Shown: in pieces, positions 21,942-39,482 of the stretch
Layout: every line of letters begins with the position of its first letter
Numbering within the stretch: position 1 is the first letter of the stretch
DNA from: Schizochytrium sp. TIO01
Lineage: Eukaryota > Sar > Bigyra > Thraustochytrida > Thraustochytriidae
Direction of reading: 5' to 3'
NCBI GenBank assembly: GCA_004764695.1
Contig: SMSO01000004.1
Location: 332,501-396,500 of the forward strand
Length of the DNA stretch: 64,000 bases
Program-made: the position numbers and the translations under genes
The notes under the pieces: model-generated
What the model was told of the DNA's origin: nothing
Seen by the model: only the letters and a program-made list of their open reading frames with translations
The model's database searches: none

Positions 21942-24900
21942 TCAGAGATCATCTTCATCGATATGATGGACCGACTCGGATTCACTCGAAGGCTGCTGCC
22001 GCGACACAGGTGGGGGAGGGGGTGCCCTCCGCTGGGCAAGTTGAAGAACAGACAGCATTTGACCAGTTGCAGCATTGTAGTAGTATCCGTCGCCTGCTGC
22101 GCGCCAAAATGAACTTGGAGCAAACTGACGAGGAAATTGTGGATTAGGCTCATCTGAAGAGCCACGAGGAATCTCGGCCCATGAAATACGACGAGAGAGG
22201 TTATGTGATAACCGCGTCCGATCACGCATACGAACTGCCGCAGGTACGCGCTCCATGGTAGTTTGATATGCCGGACGTCTAGGGTGTTTCGGGATATCAG
22301 CCTCAGAGTAGTCGTCGAACCCTGAGATTCTTTTCTGAGGCTTGGACATTTCCTCAAATGCAGCCTGCTCTTCGGCCGCAGCTTCTACCAGCTCATCCTT
22401 GAGTTCAAGGAAAGAAAGAGCAGTTACACGATGGTACATGTCAACTTTTCTCCAGTACACAAGCAATCTCATAAAGCGAGTGAGTCTCACAATCATTGCA
22501 AGAATAATTTGTGTAATGAGGCTTCCTTCTGAAGCAAAGACTTGAGACGTAAGAGCGAGGTCTGCAACTGACAAGAAGCCCAAGAAGGCATCTCGAGAGC
22601 CATACCATGTACAATCAAGTTTGCCATCGAGAGTTATAGGGATAAGGAAGAAGAGTTGCAAAAAGAAGTACAGGCCGTACAATATTGAAATGGAAACCGA
22701 AGCCACAATTACACCTGGCTCAAGTTTTGGAACTTCTGCTCCACAAATATACATCGTACTGAAAAAGTCCGAAAGAAAAAGCAAAAGGGCCATGTTACGA
22801 TCAAGTATAAATGCGACCACTGGATGTTGAAGGAATGAAAGTCGGCTGCCTCGCGTAACAGACTCCTCCGAAAACTCCGAATGTGGTCCTTTCGGTGTCC
22901 CCTCGCTTACAATGTGATCAACTCGATTTTGCGAGAGGTTGAAATCTGAAACATGAGGCAAGGGGCTTGGTGTAAGGCTTACAGTACCAGTTCTAGGGGT
23001 ACGAGGGTTCCGGGTAGTCAGAGGGGTTGAGTAAGTAGACAACTTAGCTGCTGTTTCGCTACGTTTCATCGTCGGCGTTTGTGCTTCAAGCATAGTTCCC
23101 ATAGTATTGTTCTTTGGTGTTGCCAACAAGCGTCGACGCGAGCCTTCATCAAAAACTAAAGCAATATTGGATGGCCTCATTCGCGTCTCGTCATCCACTG
23201 TGCGTCGTTTAACACGGTCTCCACGCTTACGTACGTATCGAATGTAAAAGTCTGCAGCGCTAAGACCTCGAAAGACCATTACAAAGATCATAAGCACAAG
23301 GATGCACATGTATTCGTCTCGATTGTCATAAGAAAGGCTCCTTAAAATCACGTCGCCAGTCCGGGATGCCTTTTCAAGTGTCGTAAGGTCACTACCTGCA
23401 AAAAGTTGAACGCCTGCAAGGTCATTAATAAGGGTCGCTACAAAAGACCAATAAGTGACCATAATATAGGGAATCCATTGTAGGTATGTCGGCAAGTCGC
23501 TTAATCTTACAATGAAACCATTAAATAGTGCACCAAGACCAAGGAGCCCAATCTCTAACATTGCTGCAATGCGCACGTTGTCACGGTCAATTTCGATAAG
23601 TACATTCTGGCATAAGACGACGAGTGAGGTCAGCGCCATGGTCAGTAAGAAAATGCCGAACCGCTCTGGGTCCGGGTTCAATCCGCCAATCCAATATACT
23701 GGAATAGAAAAGGCAAGGGCTTCGAGTGTGGAGCTTACTGCATCACGCATAAACTGGCTCAACAAAAAGGCAATCCATGAGCGAAAGGTACCAGCATCTG
23801 CTTCATAATCATACATACGTTTCTCACCAAGGTAGCGGTCGCCAAGAAATGTACCTTCAATGAATGTCATGGTCGCCACTGTCAAATACGCCAGTGCTGT
23901 ACGAGAGCTGTACGTGTTTACATCTACAAATATGACTCCTACTAAAACACCTCCGCCCAACGAAAGTAGTGTCGTTGTGGTAATTTCAAAGCCCCCGCGA
24001 AGAATCGATCGCGAAAGATGTACCCACGCCAACGTGGCTGCTGACGACGACTCAGACCATGACCAGCGTCCCTCTGCAAGGGAGTTTTCCACAAGAATCT
24101 CCTTGAGGTCTTTTAGCATTGCCGGGGTCAACTCAGCTGTTTCGTACTCCATTTCCTCTTGTACAGCTTCTCCTAAAGCTCCCTGCTCATATGCATATTC
24201 GAAATTATGAACATGCTCATCCGAGCAAGTCTGCAGCATATCAAGAATATCGTTAGCGACGTTCGTAGCGGCTGGCGAGATACCAAAGTGCCTTGGTGCT
24301 TCTCTTGCCTCACCGGAAAATACAACTCGCCCACTAACAAGAAAACTAAGACGGTCAAAGTACTCAAATATTTCGCGGCGTGGTTGATGAATCGTCATAA
24401 TAACATTCACGCTTGCTTCGTGAGCCATAACATGCAGAGATTTTATCAGTAACAGTGCATTTGTGGAATCCAATCCTGATGTCGGTTCATCAAGTAGAAG
24501 GACTGCTGGCATTTTAAGTAATTGAGTGGCAACAGACACACGCCGTCGCTGTCCACCCGAGATACCTCCCTCCACAGTGACGCCTCCGTCGCCACAAATT
24601 GTGTCAGCACATTCTCTAAGCTCCAGTAGCCTCATTACTTGCCAGACGCGCCGTAGCTTCGCTTCTGCTGTCATGTATTGAGGGAGCATCATCCAAGCTG
24701 CGTGGACGAGGTGCTCGCGAACAGTCAGGCGAGGGAAAATGACATCAGCCTGCCTTACATAGCTGGTGTTATGACGAAGCCACTGTCTTAAGAATTTGCA
24801 GGATGGCGAGTCTGATGCAACGCCATTTATGTAATGACCTCCTGAAATTGATCCCATATCTCTTGTGAGAGCTAGAATATCAAGCAGCGTCGATTTGCCA

Positions 24901-26831
24901 CTGCCAGAGGGCCCCATGATGGCATGTACCATACCAGGGGCAAATGCTAGACTCACATCTTCCAAGATTTTGTAAGGCTTATCCCGACGAGATCTTGGGA
25001 GAGCCCAATAGGATAGGTACTTGACCATGAGATGGATTCTGCGATACTCTGTACTGCTTGCCTCGTTTAAAAGCTGTTGTTGGACTTCCTTAATACCTTC
25101 TTCATGATCATCACTTTCAACCAGCTTTACGCGTCTCCAATACGCATCAACTGTTCGTCGAAAGCGCCGTACCTGATGGTAACTTAAGCCAAAGGCAACG
25201 TGAAAAATCAAAAGAGTCATTGCTCCGTAAAACAACACCATATACTGTACGCAATGACTCAGGGATGACGCAACAGAGAGCGCTTCAACCTTGGTCAGGC
25301 ATTTTTCATTACACAAGAATGAACCGCATGAGTCTTGAAGAACATTTAAAGGTGTAGAAAGTGCAACACCCGAAGCTGTTTCCGAAATCCCGCCTGTACC
25401 ATTTAAAGCAATGAAGCTTTTCACAGCAGTGCGCACACTAAGCCCATCAATGGCGACGTTTTCCCAGACTTCATAATCGCGTTGAAAGGTGATTGTCCCA
25501 AAGTCTTCGATAGTCTCAACACGTTCTGTGATTCGATGCAATGATGTTGGAACAATGTACCCATGTTGCGCACAGGCCGTGACAAAAAAGTAATGGCTTG
25601 CGGCAATGCCGCGCAGGTCAACCGCATCAAGCACATCTGCCCGAACCATATCGCCATATGTCTCGATATAGATGCTTGCAGCAGATGCGAAAGATGCTGA
25701 ATCGTAATACGAATCGCGTTTCGTAGCATTAAGCAGACCAAGGAGCTCAAGCTGGATTAGATCATACCGACTTTGAATAAACAATAACTTTTCATTCCCT
25801 ACGTCTTGCAAGAGCTCATAAGGTAGAAAGCACCGCCAACGCAAGTCGCGCTCACTCGTGCCTCCAACCCTGGTCAGACAGTCAGCGTTAAAAGCGGCGC
25901 CATCTATCCAATCTTCAGTTTGTTTACGAAACAGATTCTCCACTAGATAAATATCGTCAGGAACGGCTGTATCTGGAGAAAATCCTTCAGTATTGAAAAA
26001 CCAAGGTGAGTCAAGCACAGCAAAGAGATCACGTTCACGTCCTGTATCTGTTGGGTCAAATTCATCATGAATGGCTTCTAAATCGTCTCGAATCCTATTG
26101 ATGAGGTTCATGACAGCAATAGCCCCCCCACGGGTCCCTCCAAAAATGACCCTGCTGGCCAATGTGAGATTATAGTTATATGTTAGCTCCATAAGTACAT
26201 TACGAAGGACACGTTGGCCTCGGTGTCTTTCGTTAGAGCCTGTCCCGTTCCCTAACCACCAATCGAGAGTGCAGGAAGGTATGAAAACTCTCCTGAATTT
26301 AGCAATGTCGTTGTCGTCGGGGCACAATATGGTTTGCGGCGTTACACGAGGATACGTATTCCACCAGTCGCTTGTACATATGACTCGTGAGTACAGACAT
26401 TGAGCTAACTCTTCTGAAATCTCACCACTTGTCAAAGTGTACAAAGCGTTGTCTCCAAAAAAGTCTTTGTTGGAATAGCCGTCACAGACTGTGTCGTCAT
26501 TATTTGCTCCCTTCACTGTGCCATTGCACAGCTCATCGCATTGGTTTCCAGAGCAGAGCTCCGAGTCTCCGAGCCATATAATATAATCTGCAGCGCCATC
26601 CTCATTAACAGAGTCTGATTCACCAAAATAAAAACCGTACTGTGATCCATCAGCGCAGCTTGCGTTCTCCGAATAATAATAAGACGACGACTCATACAGC
26701 GTTGTATTGAAGTCAGAATCACTTTCATATAGAACCAACTGTTGTGATGCTGTGCATTTTGTGCCTTGCGTTCGCTGTGTTGTGCCCGCGAGCCATATTC
26801 CCACAATCACAAAGCTTAGACTCCACCTCAT
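21942..26831 (-). CDS. ABCG half-transporter fused to a Notum/pectin-acetylesterase-like ectodomain and a voltage-sensor-like tail
   Basis: 1629 residues in one exon. Order: signal peptide (1-23); pectin-acetylesterase/Notum-like domain (about 60-510) with VFIPSCTLDWWLG, DSPWFFN, FIQSRYDLIQL and ACAQHGY; a membrane helix (about 528-548); ABCG nucleotide-binding domain with Walker A GPSGSGKST (640-648), signature ISGGQ (757-761), Walker B LLLDEP and H-loop TIHQP; six-helix ABC2 domain (about 930-1200); then a Ser/Thr-rich linker and four further hydrophobic helices (about 1338-1460). The last of these has Arg at 1449, 1452 and 1455, like a voltage-sensor S4. Near the end, WRAAGDGYYYNAATGQ resembles half of a WW domain. 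In the esterase domain Asp357 and His423 align with the family's catalytic residues, but the nucleophile motif GxSxGG is GGTRGG (231-236), so hydrolase activity is doubtful. ABCG proteins normally dimerise and export lipids or xenobiotics. The substrate here is unknown. Confidence 0.88.
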   Translation of the reverse strand: MRWSLSFVIVGIWLAGTTQRTQGTKCTASQQLVLYESDSDFNTTLYESSSYYYSENASCADGSQYGFYFGESDSVNEDGAADYIIWLGDSELCSGNQCDELCNGTVKGANNDDTVCDGYSNKDFFGDNALYTLTSGEISEELAQCLYSRVICTSDWWNTYPRVTPQTILCPDDNDIAKFRRVFIPSCTLDWWLGNGTGSNERHRGQRVLRNVLMELTYNYNLTLASRVIFGGTRGGAIAVMNLINRIRDDLEAIHDEFDPTDTGRERDLFAVLDSPWFFNTEGFSPDTAVPDDIYLVENLFRKQTEDWIDGAAFNADCLTRVGGTSERDLRWRCFLPYELLQDVGNEKLLFIQSRYDLIQLELLGLLNATKRDSYYDSASFASAASIYIETYGDMVRADVLDAVDLRGIAASHYFFVTACAQHGYIVPTSLHRITERVETIEDFGTITFQRDYEVWENVAIDGLSVRTAVKSFIALNGTGGISETASGVALSTPLNVLQDSCGSFLCNEKCLTKVEALSVASSLSHCVQYMVLFYGAMTLLIFHVAFGLSYHQVRRFRRTVDAYWRRVKLVESDDHEEGIKEVQQQLLNEASSTEYRRIHLMVKYLSYWALPRSRRDKPYKILEDVSLAFAPGMVHAIMGPSGSGKSTLLDILALTRDMGSISGGHYINGVASDSPSCKFLRQWLRHNTSYVRQADVIFPRLTVREHLVHAAWMMLPQYMTAEAKLRRVWQVMRLLELRECADTICGDGGVTVEGGISGGQRRRVSVATQLLKMPAVLLLDEPTSGLDSTNALLLIKSLHVMAHEASVNVIMTIHQPRREIFEYFDRLSFLVSGRVVFSGEAREAPRHFGISPAATNVANDILDMLQTCSDEHVHNFEYAYEQGALGEAVQEEMEYETAELTPAMLKDLKEILVENSLAEGRWSWSESSSAATLAWVHLSRSILRGGFEITTTTLLSLGGGVLVGVIFVDVNTYSSRTALAYLTVATMTFIEGTFLGDRYLGEKRMYDYEADAGTFRSWIAFLLSQFMRDAVSSTLEALAFSIPVYWIGGLNPDPERFGIFLLTMALTSLVVLCQNVLIEIDRDNVRIAAMLEIGLLGLGALFNGFIVRLSDLPTYLQWIPYIMVTYWSFVATLINDLAGVQLFAGSDLTTLEKASRTGDVILRSLSYDNRDEYMCILVLMIFVMVFRGLSAADFYIRYVRKRGDRVKRRTVDDETRMRPSNIALVFDEGSRRRLLATPKNNTMGTMLEAQTPTMKRSETAAKLSTYSTPLTTRNPRTPRTGTVSLTPSPLPHVSDFNLSQNRVDHIVSEGTPKGPHSEFSEESVTRGSRLSFLQHPVVAFILDRNMALLLFLSDFFSTMYICGAEVPKLEPGVIVASVSISILYGLYFFLQLFFLIPITLDGKLDCTWYGSRDAFLGFLSVADLALTSQVFASEGSLITQIILAMIVRLTRFMRLLVYWRKVDMYHRVTALSFLELKDELVEAAAEEQAAFEEMSKPQKRISGFDDYSEADIPKHPRRPAYQTTMERVPAAVRMRDRTRLSHNLSRRISWAEIPRGSSDEPNPQFPRQFAPSSFWRAAGDGYYYNAATGQMLSVLQLAQRRAPPPPPVSRQQPSSESESVHHIDEDDL

Positions 26832-29018: not shown

Positions 29019-32000
29019 ATGCCGCGGAATAGCAAGACGAAAGCATGGGACCTGCCCAGAGTTCTTTCCAATTTTTACAAAGTCTATGCCCCGGAGAAAA
29101 TCGATGATGTGGATCGAGTTATTGCCCATTTTCAGGGCCGAGAAGATGACCTTATTGAGACGCTCGAGGACAAATACTCAGTGGCATTCAATCGTGACGG
29201 ATCCTTCGAAGATGTCATTCTTGAAGATGAGGATGATGACACACGGAACCCTGGTCTCGGAGACGAACTTGATGGCGAAGAAGAAGACGAGTCCTACACA
29301 TACGCAACGGACTCTGACGAAGAGGATCGTACCATTTCAGACGAGAGCTATGACTCAGATGAATTTGAACCGGACCCTGAACTCAAAGAAGAGTTGGAGT
29401 TTTCTATGAAGTCAGAAAAAGCGAAGGCTGCAGACTTTGCTCGGGCTGCAGCCGCTGTTATTGCAGCCAGACAACCACGGCAGCGCACTATTACAGAAAC
29501 ACTTGAAGACAATACCCGCAAATCAAAAAGTCGAAGCGTCTCGCACTCAGTCCGAAGTAGCAGACGGAACGTGCGAGCTTCCTCCAAACTCCGAAGAGCA
29601 TCCAAAGTTTCAACGTCGAGTCATTCCTCAAAATCGCGACGGCCTTCGCTTCACAAGTCTACGAGTAAAATGAGTCGTAGAAGTAGTGTGAGCAAGAAGG
29701 GCCTTAAAGCTAATCGTGACTTTGGATTTGTCGAGGTTGGTATCTCTGTTGCCGAGAAAGCAAAGTATCTAAGCAAGACTGGAACTGAAGTGTGGATTCG
29801 AGATGCTGACGAAGCTTGGATTTCTGGTGTAGTTGCTAATTCCAAAGCCGATGGGGAGGTGAGCGTTAAGATTAGCAACGGTCGTCGTAGCCAAGTCTTG
29901 TCTGTAGAACCTGACGACGTGGAGCCAGTCTTGGAACCCACTTCAAGCCTATACAAGGTAGACGATCTCACAAAGCTCAAAGCACTGCACGAACCTTCGC
30001 TTCTACAAGCTTTGCAAGAGCGATTTGCGCGTGATTCCATTTATACCTATACTGGACCAATTTTACTGGCCGTCAACCCTTTTAAGCCTCTTAACATTTA
30101 TGGCGAGGCAGTTGCTTCTCAATACACGGAGTCCAGTAAAGGCTTCACATCAAAAGGCTCCAGACTCAAACCAGTCGACCTGCCTCCTCACGTTTATAAG
30201 CTTGCTGACGATGCTTATCGTGCACTCATCGAGCGTGGTGGACGCAACCAGAGTATCCTTGTTAGCGGTGAGTCTGGCGCCGGCAAGACAGAAACTGTCA
30301 AAATTGTTCTAAATTACCTATCTTATGTAAGTTCCTTTGGACGCAAGCTTGGCAAGGTATACGCTGCAGATCGTGTTTTACGAGCGAATCCAGTATTAGA
30401 ATCCTTTGGTAATGCCAAAACACTACGCAATGACAACTCTTCTAGGTTTGGCAAATTTATTCAAGTTCAATTCGACGAGAATAAAGGTGACCTGAAAGGT
30501 GCATACATAGAGACATACCTTCTTGAAAAGGCGCGTGTTGTTCACCAAGCTAAAGGAGAAAGAAACTATCATATATTTTATGAGTTAGCAGCGGGAGCTA
30601 GTTCTGAGCAAAGGCGGCGTTGGAACTTTCCAAAGTCTCTCAAGTCTTGCCGATACACATGTCAAAGCGGAACAATGAAGCGATCAGATATTGATGATCT
30701 TGCTCAATTTCAAACAACAGTTGGAGCTATGGAAGTTCTCAACTTCTCACCTTCTGATGTTGAGCGGATTTTTCGATGCGTCGTTGCGGTGTTGCATCTC
30801 GGAAACATCGATTTCGACGAGACCATCAATAAGGAGGGACTTTCAGCGGCGTTTGTAGTCAATCCGGAGGAGTCCACTGAGCTTGCCTCCGAATTGCTCG
30901 GCATTGACGCGGGCCACTTGGAAGAAGTTCTCACCACGCGCATCATCAACATTTCTGGAAGCGAAAGTATGGTCAAGCCTATGAGTATGATTGAGGCAGA
31001 AGATGCTCGCGATGCGCTCGCTATGAACCTATATGAACGTGTCTTTGGGTGGGTTGTTTGGCGTACAAACCTAAGTATTGGCATGGATGATAAACAATAC
31101 GAGGCTATGCTCGCTCGGCAAGAACAGCAGCGACAGTACCTTGAACGAGCTCGGCGCCGCGGTGAAGAAGAGGATTTGGAAGAACTCGCTGCTGCTGGTC
31201 CTGTCCCAGCGGAAATCACCTCTGTAGGTGCCTCCCTTTCAATGAATCCATTTCGTATCAGCATTAATAAAGCATTTGCGCATGCTTTGCGAGTTTCTGG
31301 TCTCGCACGGCAATCAGACAGCGATCGTGAGCCTGCACATGACTATCTTATTGGCTGTCTCGACATCTTTGGATTTGAAGTCTTTCAAACAAACTCATTT
31401 GAACAGCTTTGCATCAACTACACGAACGAGCAACTTCAGCATCAGTTTAACGAGTTCGTGTTTCAGTATGAGCAAGAAGAGTATGTACGTGAGGGTATCG
31501 ACTGGACATTTGTCACATTTCCTGATAATGCAGAGTGCATATCCATGATCGAATCAAAACCAATTGGACTTCTCTCTCTAATTGACGAGGAGTGCTTATG
31601 GCCAAAGGGTACAGATGCCTCGCTTTGGGCCAAGCTGGAAACCAATCTTCCCAAAAAGTTCCCCGATCACTTTCTTATCACACGCTTTGATAGAGCAAAC
31701 TCGTCATTTACTATCCGTCATTTCGCAGGGGATGTATCATACTGTGTCACTGGATTTTGCATCAAAAATAAGAATGAACTACGCCAAGAAGCTGTAGATC
31801 TTATACGTTCTTCAACAGATCGCCTCGTCAGTATGTTACTACCAGCGAGTGCTGAAGCAGCAGCTGGAGGTGCTGATATGGCGGCTCATTTTGATAGCCT
31901 AATGTCTGAGAGCGGGAAGCCAACCCGACGCGCCCGAGGTGGCTCGCTCTCAGGACCTGCACCTCCTCAACGAGGCACCAAGATTCTTAAAACGACTGTA

Positions 32001-33254
32001 GGATCTAACTTCAAGAATCAACTCGCAAGTGCGATGGCAGTCATCCGTGGCAGTGACCCGCACTACATTCGATGTTTGAAACCGAATGCTGAAAATAAAC
32101 CGGGTCGTTTTGAGCGTCTCAGTATGATGAGTCAATTGCGATACTCTGGAGTGATTGAACTCGTTCGAGTTACCAAAGCTGGCTATCCAACACGGTTTTC
32201 ATTAGGCGACTTCATCGAGCGATTTGCAGTTCTTAGCTATGGTTTGCAAAAAGCAGCAAAGAAGGGCTCACAGCTTGCACAAAGTGGTAATCTCAGCGCT
32301 CAACGTGCTATGTGCAAGAAAATTTGTGATAACGTCAAAATCAAACACGGCGCGGACTATCAAATTGGGCATACAAAGATGTTTCTGCGCCAAGCTACTC
32401 TGTCATACTTGGAGATGAAGAAAGCTGAACGTACCTACGACAGTATTGTTCGAATCCAAAGGGCATTTCGTCAGTATCGAGCTGAGTTCAAGAAACGGTA
32501 TGCTGCGATTGTGATTCAGAGAAATGTCAGAGGATATCTAGTTCGTATGGAAACTGAAATTCTCTTGGAACGACGTGCACTTGCTGCTGAGATAATTCAG
32601 ACCAACCCTCATTTTCAACGCTGGCTTGATTGGGTTATGCGAAAGTCGAGAGCAGAGCGTCGCCGTCGCCGTCGTCGAGCAGTTCAGCGGCTTCCCTTTA
32701 CATGGCATACCCCGCCATGGGTGGAAAACAATAAAGATATTCTCATGTGGGTTGCGCCGGGTCTTTTCCTCTATTTTCTTCCATCCATTTTAAGATTAAT
32801 CGGCTCGGTCGTGCATAACTTCAACTTATTGCCGCTATTCGCTGCGATGCTAGCTTCAGGGATGTTTTTTGGGGGTCTGGGTATGCAACATGTAGAAGAC
32901 ATTTTGCATCATTTTCGGTCTGCGGCAATTGCAAGTGCATCTGCATCTTCTCGGAGGCATGCACGTGCAAGAAAATCAACAGCCCGTCGACGGTCTGTGG
33001 ATGATCGCTCGACCACAAGTCGTCGTAGCAGGGATCGTAAGAATAGGACCTCGTCGAGGAAGTCCCGCCGACGCGATGCTAACAGACGAGAAAATATTCG
33101 CGGTGTAGAAACCTCTGCTCGCTTCAATGCAAGAGCCACACGATTGCGTGCCGAAAAAGCCAAGTCAAAGCGCCGTTCTCAATCTTTTGAAATGTCTGCG
33201 TCAGGGGCTCGTGCACAGCCCAAATTTAGAGGTATTTATCTTTCACGGAAATGA
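29019..33254 (+). CDS. Unconventional myosin with C-terminal membrane hairpin
   Basis: 1411 residues. It opens with a small helical module (VLSNFYKVYAPEKIDDVDRV, to about 57), then acidic and Arg/Ser-rich disordered stretches to about 235, then an SH3-like N-terminal motor subdomain (about 255-305). The myosin motor (about 310-1125) has P-loop GESGAGKTET (417-426), switch I NNSSRFGK-type motif (471-479), switch II DIFGFEVF (782-789), and the actin-side HYIRCLKPN (1015-1023). A 55-residue charged insertion (about 695-750) interrupts the upper 50-kDa region. Two IQ motifs follow (about 1142-1180). Unusually, the tail has two hydrophobic helices (about 1242-1264 and 1268-1290) and then a very basic Arg/Ser-rich end. 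The motor motifs all look intact, so an active ATPase anchored directly in a membrane is inferred. Class cannot be assigned. It converges on the BRWD-like gene. Confidence 0.92.
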   Translation: MPRNSKTKAWDLPRVLSNFYKVYAPEKIDDVDRVIAHFQGREDDLIETLEDKYSVAFNRDGSFEDVILEDEDDDTRNPGLGDELDGEEEDESYTYATDSDEEDRTISDESYDSDEFEPDPELKEELEFSMKSEKAKAADFARAAAAVIAARQPRQRTITETLEDNTRKSKSRSVSHSVRSSRRNVRASSKLRRASKVSTSSHSSKSRRPSLHKSTSKMSRRSSVSKKGLKANRDFGFVEVGISVAEKAKYLSKTGTEVWIRDADEAWISGVVANSKADGEVSVKISNGRRSQVLSVEPDDVEPVLEPTSSLYKVDDLTKLKALHEPSLLQALQERFARDSIYTYTGPILLAVNPFKPLNIYGEAVASQYTESSKGFTSKGSRLKPVDLPPHVYKLADDAYRALIERGGRNQSILVSGESGAGKTETVKIVLNYLSYVSSFGRKLGKVYAADRVLRANPVLESFGNAKTLRNDNSSRFGKFIQVQFDENKGDLKGAYIETYLLEKARVVHQAKGERNYHIFYELAAGASSEQRRRWNFPKSLKSCRYTCQSGTMKRSDIDDLAQFQTTVGAMEVLNFSPSDVERIFRCVVAVLHLGNIDFDETINKEGLSAAFVVNPEESTELASELLGIDAGHLEEVLTTRIINISGSESMVKPMSMIEAEDARDALAMNLYERVFGWVVWRTNLSIGMDDKQYEAMLARQEQQRQYLERARRRGEEEDLEELAAAGPVPAEITSVGASLSMNPFRISINKAFAHALRVSGLARQSDSDREPAHDYLIGCLDIFGFEVFQTNSFEQLCINYTNEQLQHQFNEFVFQYEQEEYVREGIDWTFVTFPDNAECISMIESKPIGLLSLIDEECLWPKGTDASLWAKLETNLPKKFPDHFLITRFDRANSSFTIRHFAGDVSYCVTGFCIKNKNELRQEAVDLIRSSTDRLVSMLLPASAEAAAGGADMAAHFDSLMSESGKPTRRARGGSLSGPAPPQRGTKILKTTVGSNFKNQLASAMAVIRGSDPHYIRCLKPNAENKPGRFERLSMMSQLRYSGVIELVRVTKAGYPTRFSLGDFIERFAVLSYGLQKAAKKGSQLAQSGNLSAQRAMCKKICDNVKIKHGADYQIGHTKMFLRQATLSYLEMKKAERTYDSIVRIQRAFRQYRAEFKKRYAAIVIQRNVRGYLVRMETEILLERRALAAEIIQTNPHFQRWLDWVMRKSRAERRRRRRRAVQRLPFTWHTPPWVENNKDILMWVAPGLFLYFLPSILRLIGSVVHNFNLLPLFAAMLASGMFFGGLGMQHVEDILHHFRSAAIASASASSRRHARARKSTARRRSVDDRSTTSRRSRDRKNRTSSRKSRRRDANRRENIRGVETSARFNARATRLRAEKAKSKRRSQSFEMSASGARAQPKFRGIYLSRK

Positions 33255-33668: not shown

Positions 33669-36600
33669 CTAACGACGGCGCGTTCGTGTGCTTCGAGGTT
33701 GATACACCTCCTCTTCCTCGCCATCTAGGTCTTCATCATCATCGAATTCATCTTCCTCGGAATCCACATAACCGTTTCGATGGCCATATTTGATAGCGCT
33801 CTTTGCGCGTTTTGGAGCACCTCCGCCTTTAGAGGCTGTTCTTGTGCGTTTAGTACCTCTGGAACCAGTAGATACACGTGCAGGGCGCCGGCGGTTTGAC
33901 CTTTCTCCATAATTATCGTCATCGTCATCATCTTCATCGTCAGAGTTATCGAAGTCTTCTTCCTCATCTTCGTCTTCCTCATCGTCTTCATCTTCGTCGC
34001 TTTCTGCAGCTGCGCGTCGTTTAGGCGCCTTTGCTTTGCTCTTGCTAGGGCCCTTGTCTTTGCTTGATTTTCCCCCGAACTCGGACGAATCGAGATTTGA
34101 CAAGGGCAGAGACACCCAGCTAGCCAAGCCTACTATGTCTGTCGCGACCTTCGGGATTTCTCTGTCAACCATGTTTTTCCCATTAATCGCAGCACGGTAC
34201 ACTGGCGTACCTTCCTGATTAAACAACACTGCATTGTCAAATACCAGGGTCAGATCAGCCTCATAGGCCTTCATGATAGCAACAGCAGTGGATTCGGAAA
34301 GGAGGGTATTTCTGCCAGTGGCATCATTACCATATTCACCATCCTCAAGTTTGTCTACAATTGTGCTGAAGTCCATTGGTTGGCTGATAATATCCAAATA
34401 ACCAGGAACAACAGTCGGGTCAACTGGCTCCGCAAATATTTTTTGCCGGTCTTGTTTCTTCAACTTAGCCAAGACACCGCGAAGACCTGTCATGAGAGCA
34501 GAAGAACTCACAGTATCCCCAGCTGTAGTGGCTGAAATTGTTGCACCTCCGCCCGGAAGAGCTCGCCTGCGGCGTCCATGACGACCCAAATCTTGCTCTG
34601 ACATTTGTCTATCCTTGCTTTCGATTGCATCGCCATCGCCATCGCTATCATCGCTATCATCATCATCGTCATCTCCATCATCATCAGTGGCATTACCACC
34701 ATTCTGTTGATATGATTGTTGTTGTTGCACATGGGAAATAGACGATGAGGATGAAGAACTCGCATTCCTGTTAGAATCTGTCATATCTTGCTGGGGTTGT
34801 TCCTTGGCAACTTCCTTGCGAATAACATCAAGCAAGATACGTTGGAGCTTGTCAGCATAAGCACAGATCTGCGAACGGCTATCATTGTAAATAAAGCAAT
34901 CTTGGCGAATAAGTTTGACGTCACGTTCAATGGCCTCTACGTGACGATAATAGTGGCCACGCAAGCGGTTCACAATTGTCAACATATCCATGGGAAGCGG
35001 AACCATTGTTCCATACATAGGGACAGAATGGAGATTCACTGGTTCGATAAAGGGCTGGGCACAAGGATGCTCAATTTGAATTTCATCAAACTTGCTAGCA
35101 ATGCGATTCGCAAGTCGCTTACTTACTCCATCATTTGCCGATAAATCCACGCAAAAGGCCTGTACGCGGTGCTCCTTACGAAGTTCCCATGCAGATTGAT
35201 ATTCGTCGTCATCGGCGCCAGTCTCATTCCAGCGCACACAAATTGTTTGCCAAGGTGACCCTGGCCACGAAGAATCAGAAGAGCTGATTTCCTGCACCTG
35301 GCCTGCATAGAGTACAGATTCTCCATGGGTGCCAGTATAAATCGCATACACTGTGTCTCTCGGTTTGATACTTTGCTGCATACCGGCTTCAAAACGCTCA
35401 CGTAGAAGGATAAACTCTGCATCATCAAAAGCATGATAAGTCACTTTGAATCGAGCGCGCTTTGACACAACTACCTCAGGTGGATTGGAACTCCAAAATG
35501 ACCCTTCAGGAACAGGTATTGCGCCTTGAAGAAGATGTTGTGAAGGAACAGAGACAACCGTCAACTCGAGACGAGATTCAACTCTCGGATCTTGTCCTTC
35601 ACCCACCTGCCGCTGATGTTCATCACTTGGAAAAGTGTAGTCAACTTTATCAACACGACAGAGAACGACCGGCCATGTTCTCTGCCACCAACTTGACTGC
35701 CAAGGTGCAACTTCCGAAATAGGATAGGTTCGCAGGTAATGGTGATGTCCTTGGGCGCAATAGACCACAATATCACCTACTTGAGGACAGTACGGGTCAC
35801 TGGGAATGCGACCCACAGTCTTGCGCAGCCATTCACGATCATAGAAACGAAGCACTGATACAGTGTTACTTGGTTCCTCAACAGAGCTACGTCGTCGGCT
35901 ATTGGTAGAAGGACGGCTTCCACGCTTCGCCTTCGTACTGCGTTGAGGACGTTGCGGAAGTTCCTCGTCCTCGTCCTCTTCTTCTTCATCTTCGAGATCA
36001 TCCTCATCATCTTCTTCATCTTTGGCATAAATAACATCATCCTCGTCGTCATCGTAGTAATGTGAGCTACGTCTTGTGGAGCGAGATGCACGAGCAGATC
36101 GGCGTTGCGGGAGTCGGCGTAATGCTCGGCCACTGCGTGTGCGACGAGGCTCGCCATCCTCAGAACCATTTTCCATATCATCATCTTCTTCCATAGCGTC
36201 TCCACCATTTTTGTCATCCCACTGCTCATCAGCATCATCTTCACTGTCGCTACTCAGGTTAGGTCCGCTCATTGTTGGTGGAAGATTTTCGAAATCTTCA
36301 ATACGGCGAATCTGATTCCGAGCCTGGCGAGCAGCAGCGCGACCACGACGTTGGTTCTGTCGACCAGTACCATTGCTAGCATTAGTTGCTTCGGCCTCCT
36401 CGCGTCTGTTCGCATTTTCACGCAGTTGTTGAAGTTGTTCTTGTTCCGCACGTTCGCAAGCAAGAAGGCCAGAAGAACTGTTTCCAGGTGCAGGTGCATA
36501 GCCCATTACACCACTAGATTGTGGTGCGCGCGAAGGCGCAATAGCGGTATTTGGAACATTTGTTGGCTGTCGCATGCGAACCACATCACGAGTAACTCGC

Positions 36601-39482
36601 ATGCTTCGAGCTGGAGTGAGCTGGGTTTCCGCGTTTGATCGAGCAATGCGCTCATCTACTTCTTGGAACTTTTCTTCAAGCTTTTCCATAGCCGCCTTCT
36701 CGTTGTTGTGAAGCTGCTTCTCGATTTGACGAATAATAGAACGTCTTTCGACACGCATTGCTTCAGCATTTTGTGCAGCCGAGCCGTTTCCTTCAACATG
36801 TCGGACCTGTACAGCATACTCGGCACCCTGGCTGTCCACCAGCGGGACATTGGTAATCATATGAGGGGGGCGCTGTGTACGAGCGTCGAGAACGTTGCCA
36901 AAAGCATCACGCAAGAGTTCAGAATAATCAGTGGAGAAGAATTGTTCTGGATAAGCTCCTGCATATACAGTAGTATCCTGGGATCCAATAAGAATAAGAC
37001 GACCACCCACATCAGTCACGACAATTGCAGCCGAACTAGATCCTTGCGGGGTAAATGCACCATCAAGGATTGTCAACGGACCATACTGCGAAGAAATTGG
37101 GATTTTGCAAAGCAACTTTCCACTGTAGACATCCCAAACGCATATTTGTCCATCATAACCACCAGTCATGAACAGACGTTTATCTGTAGGATGGGCGCGT
37201 AGAACAAATGCAGGTTTGCGATGAGCCCCAACATTATGCATCAACTCACCAGTGTAAGAGTCAAATATCAAAACACGCTGGTCGAAGAATTCTGCAAGGT
37301 CCTCGTATTCGGTTTGATCCCAATTTTTCCTTAGTTTCATCGATTGTAACACGATGACGAACTGGTCATCTCCACTCCACGCGCAGGCATCAAGGGTTGG
37401 AAGTCTGTAACGATTTGTCGAGCGACGACGACCTTCAGGTCCACTGTGTGCTCCTTGCGTGCCGGCGAAAGCTGTGTTTGTGTTGCGTGTAACGCCAAGC
37501 ACGCGGTGGTGAGGCGTTGAAAAATAGTCTACAGATTGGTCTATAGTTGAGCGTTTTGGCCAATACCAAATCCGCACCGTACCATCCTGCACAGAACCAG
37601 TAAGCACACGATCACCTTTTTTAGACCACTCGGCTTGAGTAACTGAATCGGTATGTCCGCATAACGTGCAAATGAGCCTTCCGCTTCCATCGACATACTC
37701 CCCATTCACAAGATCAGGTTTAGTCACCGCGTCAGGTACTGCGGAGCAACCCTCTGGAATGTTCCGCGATACAGCCCAAATTCTTGCAATGCCGTCGTCA
37801 CACCCTGTGACCACGAGGCCGCCCTGAGGGGCCGCAGACATAACATTGACTTCCACAGACGGTGTTTCACTCGGAATTGGGGCCTTTTGGCGTAGATGAG
37901 GTAGTACTATGGGGACGCGTGGGGACAAAAATCGTGTGGTGATACCGGCAGCGGCCACGACGTTTGCAGACACAACAGGCCCAGAACCTTGCAGGCCTTC
38001 GCCCCCCGACAAGGATGACGACGAGTGCTGCCCACTACCTCCTACTGAGGTCTGCTCAGCTGCCCCTGGTGTTTCATGCCCATTCCTACTTGTTGAGGAG
38101 CTGCTGGATGATGATGATGATGATGATGACGAGTTTGTGCTTGAACGAAGTTGAGAAATCTGCAGTTCGACTTCGTCAATGATACGTTGTGTGTCCCAAA
38201 CGCAAATCATGCCATCATCGCTTGCGGACATGAGAAGATTCTCCTTGGCATCGAAGTTGACTACGTTAATGCACTTACGGTGCGGACGGAGTACAGCAAT
38301 GTGGCGGCCCGTCATGAGCTCCCACAAGCGCACAGTTTCATCAACGGATGTAGATGCTAGATAACGATTGGTCTTGTCAATGGCTACGTCACAAATCATT
38401 TTTTCGTGAGCACGAAAAGTTACCGAGAGCTGACCAGTCCGCGCGTTCCAGAGTTTACATAGAGCATCATCTGAGCCAGTCACAATCCACCGGCCAGTCT
38501 TGTCGACTGCTACACAAAAGACGTAAGCTCTATGACCATAGATCTTTTTCATGACCCGAAGGCGTTTGCAGACGAGATCCCGAGCTGGCCCATCTAGCTT
38601 TTGTTCAATTCTTGCACCAAGTTGGGCTCCACTGACAAGATCTGTGACGCTAGAGGAAGCTCTTCGCCTGCTGACCAGGTCATCGCGGAGTGCTTCTTTG
38701 GCAGCAACAATCGCACGTTCGACACGTTCTAGTTTGTTCCGACGATCACTGATGCGTTTCGCAAGGTATGCGGGGACGTTCGTTTCGTTGTTCTTGCTAA
38801 GGCTTCGGCCTACACGGATCAGTTCTGCCTCAATGTTTCGTTTCTCCTGGCGCAGACTGATGAGCGTTGACGGACGGAAACTCTTTGCTCCACTCCCCGC
38901 GGAGATGTGTGGCATAGAGGGCATGCCATAATCCACCTCGCCATTCTTGTGGGCTTCCGCATCGGGTGCGAGTAGGTCAGCTGGGTTTCTGAGTAAACTG
39001 GCGGGCAAATTTGTCCGTAGGGACCTCATTCGCGCGGCTTCCGGGCAGGCTTCCACTTCAGCCTCGGCATCAGCTCCGCGAAGCGTAGCTGCGGCGGCAG
39101 CTGATTCCCGAGCAGCTCTCTCACCGTCTTCTAGAGCAGCTTCGCGCACGTGCAGAGCCTCTATAAGGACTCTTCGAAGCTGATCAGGCGCAACCTCAGC
39201 GTATCTGCCACGAAGGTCCTCGAATGAAGCATTCCTCAACTCCCCGCTCCAGCCCGTAGCCTTTCCAAAAAGCCCTCGCGCCTGCATCTCCTCATTCATT
39301 GCTGTCACGCTTTGCATTTGAAGCGAGTTGTTGCTCAAATAGTTTGCAATCAAGAAGTGAAGCTGTCGATCGAGGGCTTCTTGAGTCTTTTCATTATGGA
39401 GAGAAGACTTCATCTCCAAGGCGTAGCCAACGCCATTGCCGCCTGTAGTGCCACCGCCCAGGTTTTTCGTACCGTTCTCCAT
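33669..39482 (-). CDS. BRWD/PHIP-type WD40 and double bromodomain protein
   Basis: 1937 residues in one exon. Residues 35-110 resemble the N-terminal helical region of BRWD proteins. WD40 blades run from about 312 to 850, for example YGHRAYVFCVAVDKTGRWIV, RAHEKMICDVAIDKT and GHTDSVTQAEWSKKGDRVLT, with a poly-Ser insertion at 448-463. Acidic/basic disordered stretches follow (1070-1205). A BRWD-specific tudor-like region (about 1230-1440) includes PQVGDIVVYCAQGHHHYLRT. Two bromodomains follow: about 1465-1555, with acetyl-lysine Asn in FIYNDSRS, and about 1672-1770, with Asn in AVLFNQEGTP. The C-terminus is acidic/basic, ending in an Arg cluster. Metazoan relatives BRWD1/BRWD3/PHIP bind chromatin and act as CUL4-DDB1 substrate receptors. 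The same nuclear role is inferred. Confidence 0.93.
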   Translation of the reverse strand: MENGTKNLGGGTTGGNGVGYALEMKSSLHNEKTQEALDRQLHFLIANYLSNNSLQMQSVTAMNEEMQARGLFGKATGWSGELRNASFEDLRGRYAEVAPDQLRRVLIEALHVREAALEDGERAARESAAAAATLRGADAEAEVEACPEAARMRSLRTNLPASLLRNPADLLAPDAEAHKNGEVDYGMPSMPHISAGSGAKSFRPSTLISLRQEKRNIEAELIRVGRSLSKNNETNVPAYLAKRISDRRNKLERVERAIVAAKEALRDDLVSRRRASSSVTDLVSGAQLGARIEQKLDGPARDLVCKRLRVMKKIYGHRAYVFCVAVDKTGRWIVTGSDDALCKLWNARTGQLSVTFRAHEKMICDVAIDKTNRYLASTSVDETVRLWELMTGRHIAVLRPHRKCINVVNFDAKENLLMSASDDGMICVWDTQRIIDEVELQISQLRSSTNSSSSSSSSSSSSSTSRNGHETPGAAEQTSVGGSGQHSSSSLSGGEGLQGSGPVVSANVVAAAGITTRFLSPRVPIVLPHLRQKAPIPSETPSVEVNVMSAAPQGGLVVTGCDDGIARIWAVSRNIPEGCSAVPDAVTKPDLVNGEYVDGSGRLICTLCGHTDSVTQAEWSKKGDRVLTGSVQDGTVRIWYWPKRSTIDQSVDYFSTPHHRVLGVTRNTNTAFAGTQGAHSGPEGRRRSTNRYRLPTLDACAWSGDDQFVIVLQSMKLRKNWDQTEYEDLAEFFDQRVLIFDSYTGELMHNVGAHRKPAFVLRAHPTDKRLFMTGGYDGQICVWDVYSGKLLCKIPISSQYGPLTILDGAFTPQGSSSAAIVVTDVGGRLILIGSQDTTVYAGAYPEQFFSTDYSELLRDAFGNVLDARTQRPPHMITNVPLVDSQGAEYAVQVRHVEGNGSAAQNAEAMRVERRSIIRQIEKQLHNNEKAAMEKLEEKFQEVDERIARSNAETQLTPARSMRVTRDVVRMRQPTNVPNTAIAPSRAPQSSGVMGYAPAPGNSSSGLLACERAEQEQLQQLRENANRREEAEATNASNGTGRQNQRRGRAAARQARNQIRRIEDFENLPPTMSGPNLSSDSEDDADEQWDDKNGGDAMEEDDDMENGSEDGEPRRTRSGRALRRLPQRRSARASRSTRRSSHYYDDDEDDVIYAKDEEDDEDDLEDEEEEDEDEELPQRPQRSTKAKRGSRPSTNSRRRSSVEEPSNTVSVLRFYDREWLRKTVGRIPSDPYCPQVGDIVVYCAQGHHHYLRTYPISEVAPWQSSWWQRTWPVVLCRVDKVDYTFPSDEHQRQVGEGQDPRVESRLELTVVSVPSQHLLQGAIPVPEGSFWSSNPPEVVVSKRARFKVTYHAFDDAEFILLRERFEAGMQQSIKPRDTVYAIYTGTHGESVLYAGQVQEISSSDSSWPGSPWQTICVRWNETGADDDEYQSAWELRKEHRVQAFCVDLSANDGVSKRLANRIASKFDEIQIEHPCAQPFIEPVNLHSVPMYGTMVPLPMDMLTIVNRLRGHYYRHVEAIERDVKLIRQDCFIYNDSRSQICAYADKLQRILLDVIRKEVAKEQPQQDMTDSNRNASSSSSSSISHVQQQQSYQQNGGNATDDDGDDDDDDSDDSDGDGDAIESKDRQMSEQDLGRHGRRRRALPGGGATISATTAGDTVSSSALMTGLRGVLAKLKKQDRQKIFAEPVDPTVVPGYLDIISQPMDFSTIVDKLEDGEYGNDATGRNTLLSESTAVAIMKAYEADLTLVFDNAVLFNQEGTPVYRAAINGKNMVDREIPKVATDIVGLASWVSLPLSNLDSSEFGGKSSKDKGPSKSKAKAPKRRAAAESDEDEDDEEDEDEEEDFDNSDDEDDDDDDNYGERSNRRRPARVSTGSRGTKRTRTASKGGGAPKRAKSAIKYGHRNGYVDSEEDEFDDDEDLDGEEEEVYQPRSTRTRRR

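Follow-up and report, generated by a model that had tools for sequence, protein, structure and literature searches.

At 21942..26831 on the minus strand of the window, the 64,000-nucleotide stretch of Schizochytrium sp. TIO01 DNA analyzed here, a single open frame encodes a 1629-aa protein (P0001) whose parts run in the order signal-peptide-like start, pectin acetylesterase (PAE)/Notum ectodomain, transmembrane (TM) helix, ABCG nucleotide-binding domain (NBD), transmembrane domain (TMD) with six TM helices, linker, four-helix tail, and C-terminal tail. Only the four-helix module falls outside the known families; all other parts can be assigned to one. Judged from charge and hydropathy, the ectodomain would be outside or lumenal, the NBD inside, and both ends of the tail inside. 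The main features are as follows.

21942..26831, minus strand: whole open frame, with its ATG at 26831 and its stop codon ending at 21942
26763..26831, minus strand: putative signal peptide, residues 1-23 (inspection of the sequence and hydropathy)
25272..26762, minus strand: ectodomain of the PAE/Notum fold, residues 24-520, carrying 7 sequons for N-glycosylation (PF03283 at 174-425, E 2.8e-13)
25179..25247, minus strand: single TM helix, residues 529-551, followed by RRFRR and joining the ectodomain to the NBD (hydropathy)
24222..24989, minus strand: ABCG NBD, residues 615-870 (ABC_tran PF00005 at 623-785, E 9.5e-26)
23232..24041, minus strand: ABCG-type TMD, residues 931-1200 (ABC2_membrane PF01061 at 942-1136, E 2.8e-16; helices also visible by hydropathy)
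22842..23231, minus strand: linker, residues 1201-1330, Ser/Thr/Pro/Arg-rich, presumed cytosolic (low conservation)
22422..22823, minus strand: four-helix hydrophobic module of unknown family, residues 1337-1470 (hydropathy, fold model, conservation in a paralogue)
21945..22421, minus strand: C-terminal tail, residues 1471-1629, charged and Pro-rich with an acidic end, presumed cytosolic (partly aligned in the paralogue)

An earlier sequence-only reading of this DNA had described one 1629-residue frame with a signal peptide, a complete ABCG NBD and TMD, and four extra C-terminal helices. The frame is confirmed, its order being repeated in the paralogue; the signal peptide is borne out by inspection alone, and the four helices by hydropathy and a low-confidence fold. 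That reading did not mention that catalytic residues have been lost, that a TM helix separates the ectodomain from the NBD, or that the gene has a second copy. We are highly confident that the anatomy is that of a pump with a dead esterase ectodomain. Searches of open-access literature turned up no account of a fusion between a PAE domain and an ABCG transporter.

Within the C-terminal tail, FWRAAGDGYYYNAATGQ at residues 1574-1595 (22047-22112, minus strand) looks like the N-terminal half of a WW domain, but it is not reported as one by Pfam and is absent from the paralogue. Elsewhere in the window, a plus-strand gene at 29019-33254 encodes a 1411-aa myosin (Myosin_head, E 1e-212) with an Arg/Ser-rich tail, in which two hydrophobic, membrane-helix-like stretches follow the IQ region (32739-32804 and 32826-32882); a membrane-anchored myosin would be unusual. 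A minus-strand gene at 33669-39482 encodes a 1937-aa BRWD/PHIP-like protein with BRWD1_N, WD40 repeats, and two bromodomains.

The ABCG Core and a Second Copy of the Gene

The paralogue is encoded on another contig (C6:1542063-1545434), where ectodomain, NBD, and TMD lie in one frame (E 4e-249) and the tail continues in the same frame (E 1.5e-9). It likewise starts with a hydrophobic leader and is 40% identical overall, with identities of 33% in the ectodomain, 61% in the NBD, 43% in the TMD, and 31% in the four-helix tail; the linker is 20% identical over 56 alignable positions. PAE matches in the genome (64 Mb, 37 contigs) number only two, both in these ABCG fusion genes, and the tail has no further credible match anywhere in the genome besides the paralogue. 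No relatives were found among viral contigs, and plasmids queried with the paralogue ectodomain and with segments of Notum gave no match.

In Pfam searches, PF03283, PF00005, and PF01061 exceeded their curated cut-offs in both copies, so that the PAE, NBD, and TMD assignments of the sequence-only reading hold at the level of family models, and the voltage-sensor match that it proposed to look for was not obtained in the tail. The NBD contains GPSGSGKST, Q694, ISGGQ, LLLDEPTSGLD, and H815, and both copies preserve the Walker A, Q-loop, signature, Walker B Glu, and H-loop intact, from which it follows that transport has probably been retained. Residues 601-1150 align continuously with human ABCG2 (E 2e-53), kinship with ABCG2, 1, 5, and 8 over NBD and TMD is found at E values of about 1e-44 to 1e-53, and the best NCBIfam model is TIGR00955, yet with a score far below its cut-off. 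By its sequence, the half-transporter looks like an ATP-competent ABCG. It shares the NBD-then-TMD order and all ATPase motifs with the white, ABCG1, ABCG2, and ABCG5-G8 half-transporters but differs from them in having a signal peptide, an ectodomain of ~500 residues with a PAE fold, and an extra TM helix in front of the core, and a linker, a four-helix module, and a long tail behind it.

The two copies pair with full support in a tree of NBDs from this genome and are placed with moderate support (87/87) beside L008 and L010, the nearest other ABCGs of the genome, in both of which a hydrophobic N-terminal helix precedes the NBD. L010 (= L062, G000:C24:5319835; 936 aa) has no PAE domain; ahead of its NBD lie a signal-peptide-like leader, a short ectodomain with Cys residues, and a TM helix. 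The position of L008 and L010 and their N-terminal helix suggest that the PAE domain may have been a later addition to an ABCG whose ectodomain was small. Transporters of the yeast Adp1 and plant ABCG24/28 type offer a possible parallel: in them the ABCG core is preceded by an N-terminal signal peptide, a domain with Cys residues on the lumenal or extracellular side, and a TM helix, and we know of no PAE domain among them.

A PAE/Notum Fold and Its Catalytic Positions

PF03283 scored 50.1 bits here and 63.5 bits in the paralogue (curated cut-off 26.6), and when a profile of both ectodomains was compared with the PDB, NOTUM was the only significant relative (E 6.5e-8). An ectodomain model built from seven sequences (pLDDT 39) ranked Notum first in Foldseek (E 2e-4). 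Up to the anchor helix, 16 of 17 Cys residues are common to both copies, and each ectodomain carries 6-7 N-glycosylation sequons; together, these suggest a maintained secreted-type fold. Notum and the plant and bacterial PAEs are free-standing enzymes. The positions at which their catalytic residues would be expected are as follows.

26553..26576, minus strand: degenerate oxyanion-hole loop WLGDSELC, residues 86-93 (alignments to PAEs and Notum)
26124..26138, minus strand: former nucleophile elbow GTRGG, residues 232-236, with Arg234 at the catalytic Ser position
25761..25763, minus strand: Asp357, opposite Notum Asp340, presumably the catalytic Asp of that enzyme; Glu in the paralogue (HMMER and MAFFT alignments)
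25563..25565, minus strand: His423, the putative equivalent of Notum His389 by motif (ACAQH here, ACLSH in Notum); Tyr in the paralogue

In the PDB profile alignment, the GSSAG elbow of Notum stands opposite GTRGG, with Ser232 opposite the Arg. Three MAFFT strategies concur in placing Arg opposite the nucleophile Ser in both copies, and the Ser is retained in human Notum and in all six bacterial PAEs compared, two of which have LFGGTSAGG aligning gap-free with IFGGTRGGA here. The six bacterial genes were located with a consensus-like query for the family, and the evidence comes from the genes themselves, not from the query. The low-confidence ectodomain model places GTRGG at a strand-to-helix turn. 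The oxyanion loop reads GDS here and GDN in the paralogue, as against GGG in the bacterial PAEs and GGW in Notum. Counterparts of the catalytic Asp (by alignment with Notum) and His (by motif) appear to be retained in P0001, and Glu and Tyr take their places in the paralogue.

Ser232 is the nucleophile of Notum (PMC8010218; PMC10626578), and S232A inactivates the enzyme (PMC8010218); G127, W128, A233, and H389 contact the acyl head of the substrate (PMC8010218; PMC10626578). Judged by these residues, the ectodomain is a Notum fold from which the enzyme appears to have been lost, that is, a predicted pseudo-esterase. It resembles Notum and the PAEs in family membership and differs from Notum in the change of Ser to Arg, the lost oxyanion loop, and its membrane tether within a transporter, and the paralogue is also without the Asp and the His.

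Possible Roles of the Ectodomain at the Pump Exit

Lipids and sterols leave cells through ABCG pumps, for which the receiver of the cargo at the exit has generally been obscure; labyrinthulomycetes are known for exporting lipids and surface polysaccharides. As ABCG half-transporters function as dimers, the pump exit would be flanked by a pair of dead-esterase domains. We infer the topology, dimerization, substrate class, transport direction, and binding role in the following scheme. The half-transporter would pair up, either as a homodimer or together with the C6 paralogue, and, powered by ATP, would export a lipid-like or acylated molecule. The dead α/β-hydrolase domain of each subunit would be extracytosolic, tethered by the one extra TM helix, and would act as a nonhydrolyzing binding module close to the exit, where it could recognize an acceptor or else capture, shield, or hand on the exported ligand, an acyl chain or a glycan by analogy with the Notum pocket. 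The four-helix tail might assist assembly or localization as an accessory module in the membrane.

Inactive S232A Notum was crystallized with an acylated ligand bound (PMC8010218), and because it still binds ligand, a dead domain of the Notum fold can bind lipid. A counterpoint is that this ectodomain has lost the oxyanion residues with which Notum helps to grip the acyl head. The loss of both the nucleophile and the oxyanion loop in the two copies makes cargo binding outside the cell more plausible, and the existence of a second copy of the same build favors a binding part that has been maintained over either an enzyme or a voltage sensor. The proposal of the sequence-only reading that an outside domain could present cargo to the transporter is therefore kept as far as a fused lumenal or extracellular PAE-fold domain is concerned, and its cargo-binding element has gained plausibility. 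Taken as a whole, an ABCG exporter with a pseudo-esterase binding domain is the best explanation, and we would give it about an even chance of being right; the binding or hand-over role by itself is put forward tentatively, at slightly less than that. A former acyl-esterase whose chemistry is gone and whose folding residues are kept seems to have been attached to an ABCG pump, and this is seen twice in one genome; if the ectodomain does bind cargo, it would open a direct and testable route to the way in which the cargo of ABCG pumps is taken over outside the cell.

Many pseudoenzymes act through protein binding, and the ectodomain could instead serve in adhesion, as a receptor, or in folding and trafficking, for example in surface display, and have no contact with cargo. 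This is the main rival, which we consider rather unlikely but worth serious weight. It would accommodate the faster evolution of the ectodomain than of the NBD (33% vs 61% identity), and it has a precedent in Dictyostelium TagC, whose protease domain is found on the prestalk cell surface in a display that needs ABC transporter activity (PMC3743828). Like TagA, TagB, and TagC (PMC3743828), the protein described here would show a hydrolase-family domain outside through fusion to an ABC half-transporter; unlike them, it combines a PAE domain with an ABCG core, whereas the Tag proteins combine a serine protease with an ABCB core and TagC is active. That TagC is an ABCB with an active protease weakens the parallel, the sequence names no partner, and the intact NBD motifs of both copies argue for a working pump.

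Far less probable is an ectodomain that is still enzymatic and that deacylates or deacetylates the exported molecule as it exits, using a noncanonical nucleophile such as Thr233. Asp357 and the ACAQH histidine are retained in P0001, which leaves a narrow opening for unusual residual chemistry, and Thr233 adjoins the nucleophile position; however, every alignment places Arg234, not Thr233, opposite the Ser, the oxyanion loop is GDS, and the whole triad of Ser, Asp, and His is replaced in the paralogue (by Arg, Glu, and Tyr). The single change S232A is enough to kill Notum (PMC8010218). We rejected an active esterase on the nucleophile and the oxyanion loop, and we set Thr233 aside as the nucleophile on the alignments.

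The Four-Helix Tail and Genome Context

Three Arg residues of the last helix (at i, i+3, and i+6) and the Asp of SVADLAL had led the sequence-only reading to liken the C-terminal helices to a voltage sensor, and these residues are present as described.

22467..22487, minus strand: R1449-x2-R1452-x2-R1455, in the last helix at its presumably cytosolic end (sequence)

R1449 and R1452 are conserved in the paralogue and R1455 is not; Asp1424 (SVADLAL), in the third helix, is conserved; and helix 2 has no acidic residue in either copy. By the positive-inside charge distribution, the Arg residues would lie at the end of the last helix expected to be cytosolic. The tail thus resembles voltage-sensor domains (PF00520, Ci-VSP, Hv1) in its four predicted TM helices, the last of which carries two to three spaced Arg residues and the third an Asp, and a topology with the N terminus inside, four TM helices, and the C terminus inside would be compatible with a domain that couples membrane potential to the transporter.

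Profile evidence points the other way. The tail of either copy had no Pfam match up to E 10, and a PDB profile search with it found nothing. With hhalign, the probability was 1-2% when the targets were voltage-sensor regions from this genome's own ion channels and 9% when they were five isolated voltage-sensor domains, the match spanning 17-19 columns of the last helix only, compared with 97% for a true voltage sensor and at most 1% for reversed and TMD controls. The hhalign score against the isolated domains, 24.6, is somewhat above the 10-18 of reversed and unrelated controls. Structure prediction was equivocal: Ci-VSP and Hv1 voltage sensors were among the top Foldseek rows for a single-sequence model of the tail, but at E 1.4-2.4 and with a pLDDT of 53, and in a VIA second look at the model, generic helical bundles were found. 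The identical R-x2-R-x2-R spacing also recurs after the last TMD helix, at residue 1203. With no significant sequence or profile similarity, a third Arg that is not conserved, and no acid in helix 2, the identification of the tail as a voltage sensor is unsupported and we regard it as very unlikely, although a more remote relation is still conceivable.

A bolder reading would make the protein a representative of a novel ABC exporter class, whose duplicated and inactive lipase-fold domain of the Notum/PAE type is a built-in extracellular receptor for cargo or acceptor at the ABCG exit and the undescribed four-helix module, possibly degenerate and voltage-sensor-like, has a regulatory part; we think this improbable.

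Codon positions 1 and 2 are better conserved than position 3 between the two copies in the ectodomain, NBD, TMD, four-helix tail, and C-terminal tail, with position 2 far more conserved than position 3 in each part and four-fold sites near saturation. This pattern, which compares two sequences from one genome, as do the other statements on conservation made here, fits protein-level selection on the ectodomain and the tail as on the pump. An artifact, in which adjacent genes were run together or misassembled, might be suspected of so long a frame in a eukaryotic genome, but we dismissed it as having a negligible chance, since the paralogue repeats the identical order in one frame on a separate contig, tail and linker included, which speaks against both a chance run-on and an assembly join, and since the codon-position conservation is present in all domains.

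Other ABCG genes of this genome occur in groups. A tandem array at G000:C30:7754661-7875693 contains at least 10 ABCG matches in ~120 kb, mostly in frames of 1185-1582 aa. L014 (G000:C30:1609080) and L015 (C8:7197), the latter close to the start of contig C8, are nearly identical ABCG genes and represent either a recent duplication or a repeated contig end.
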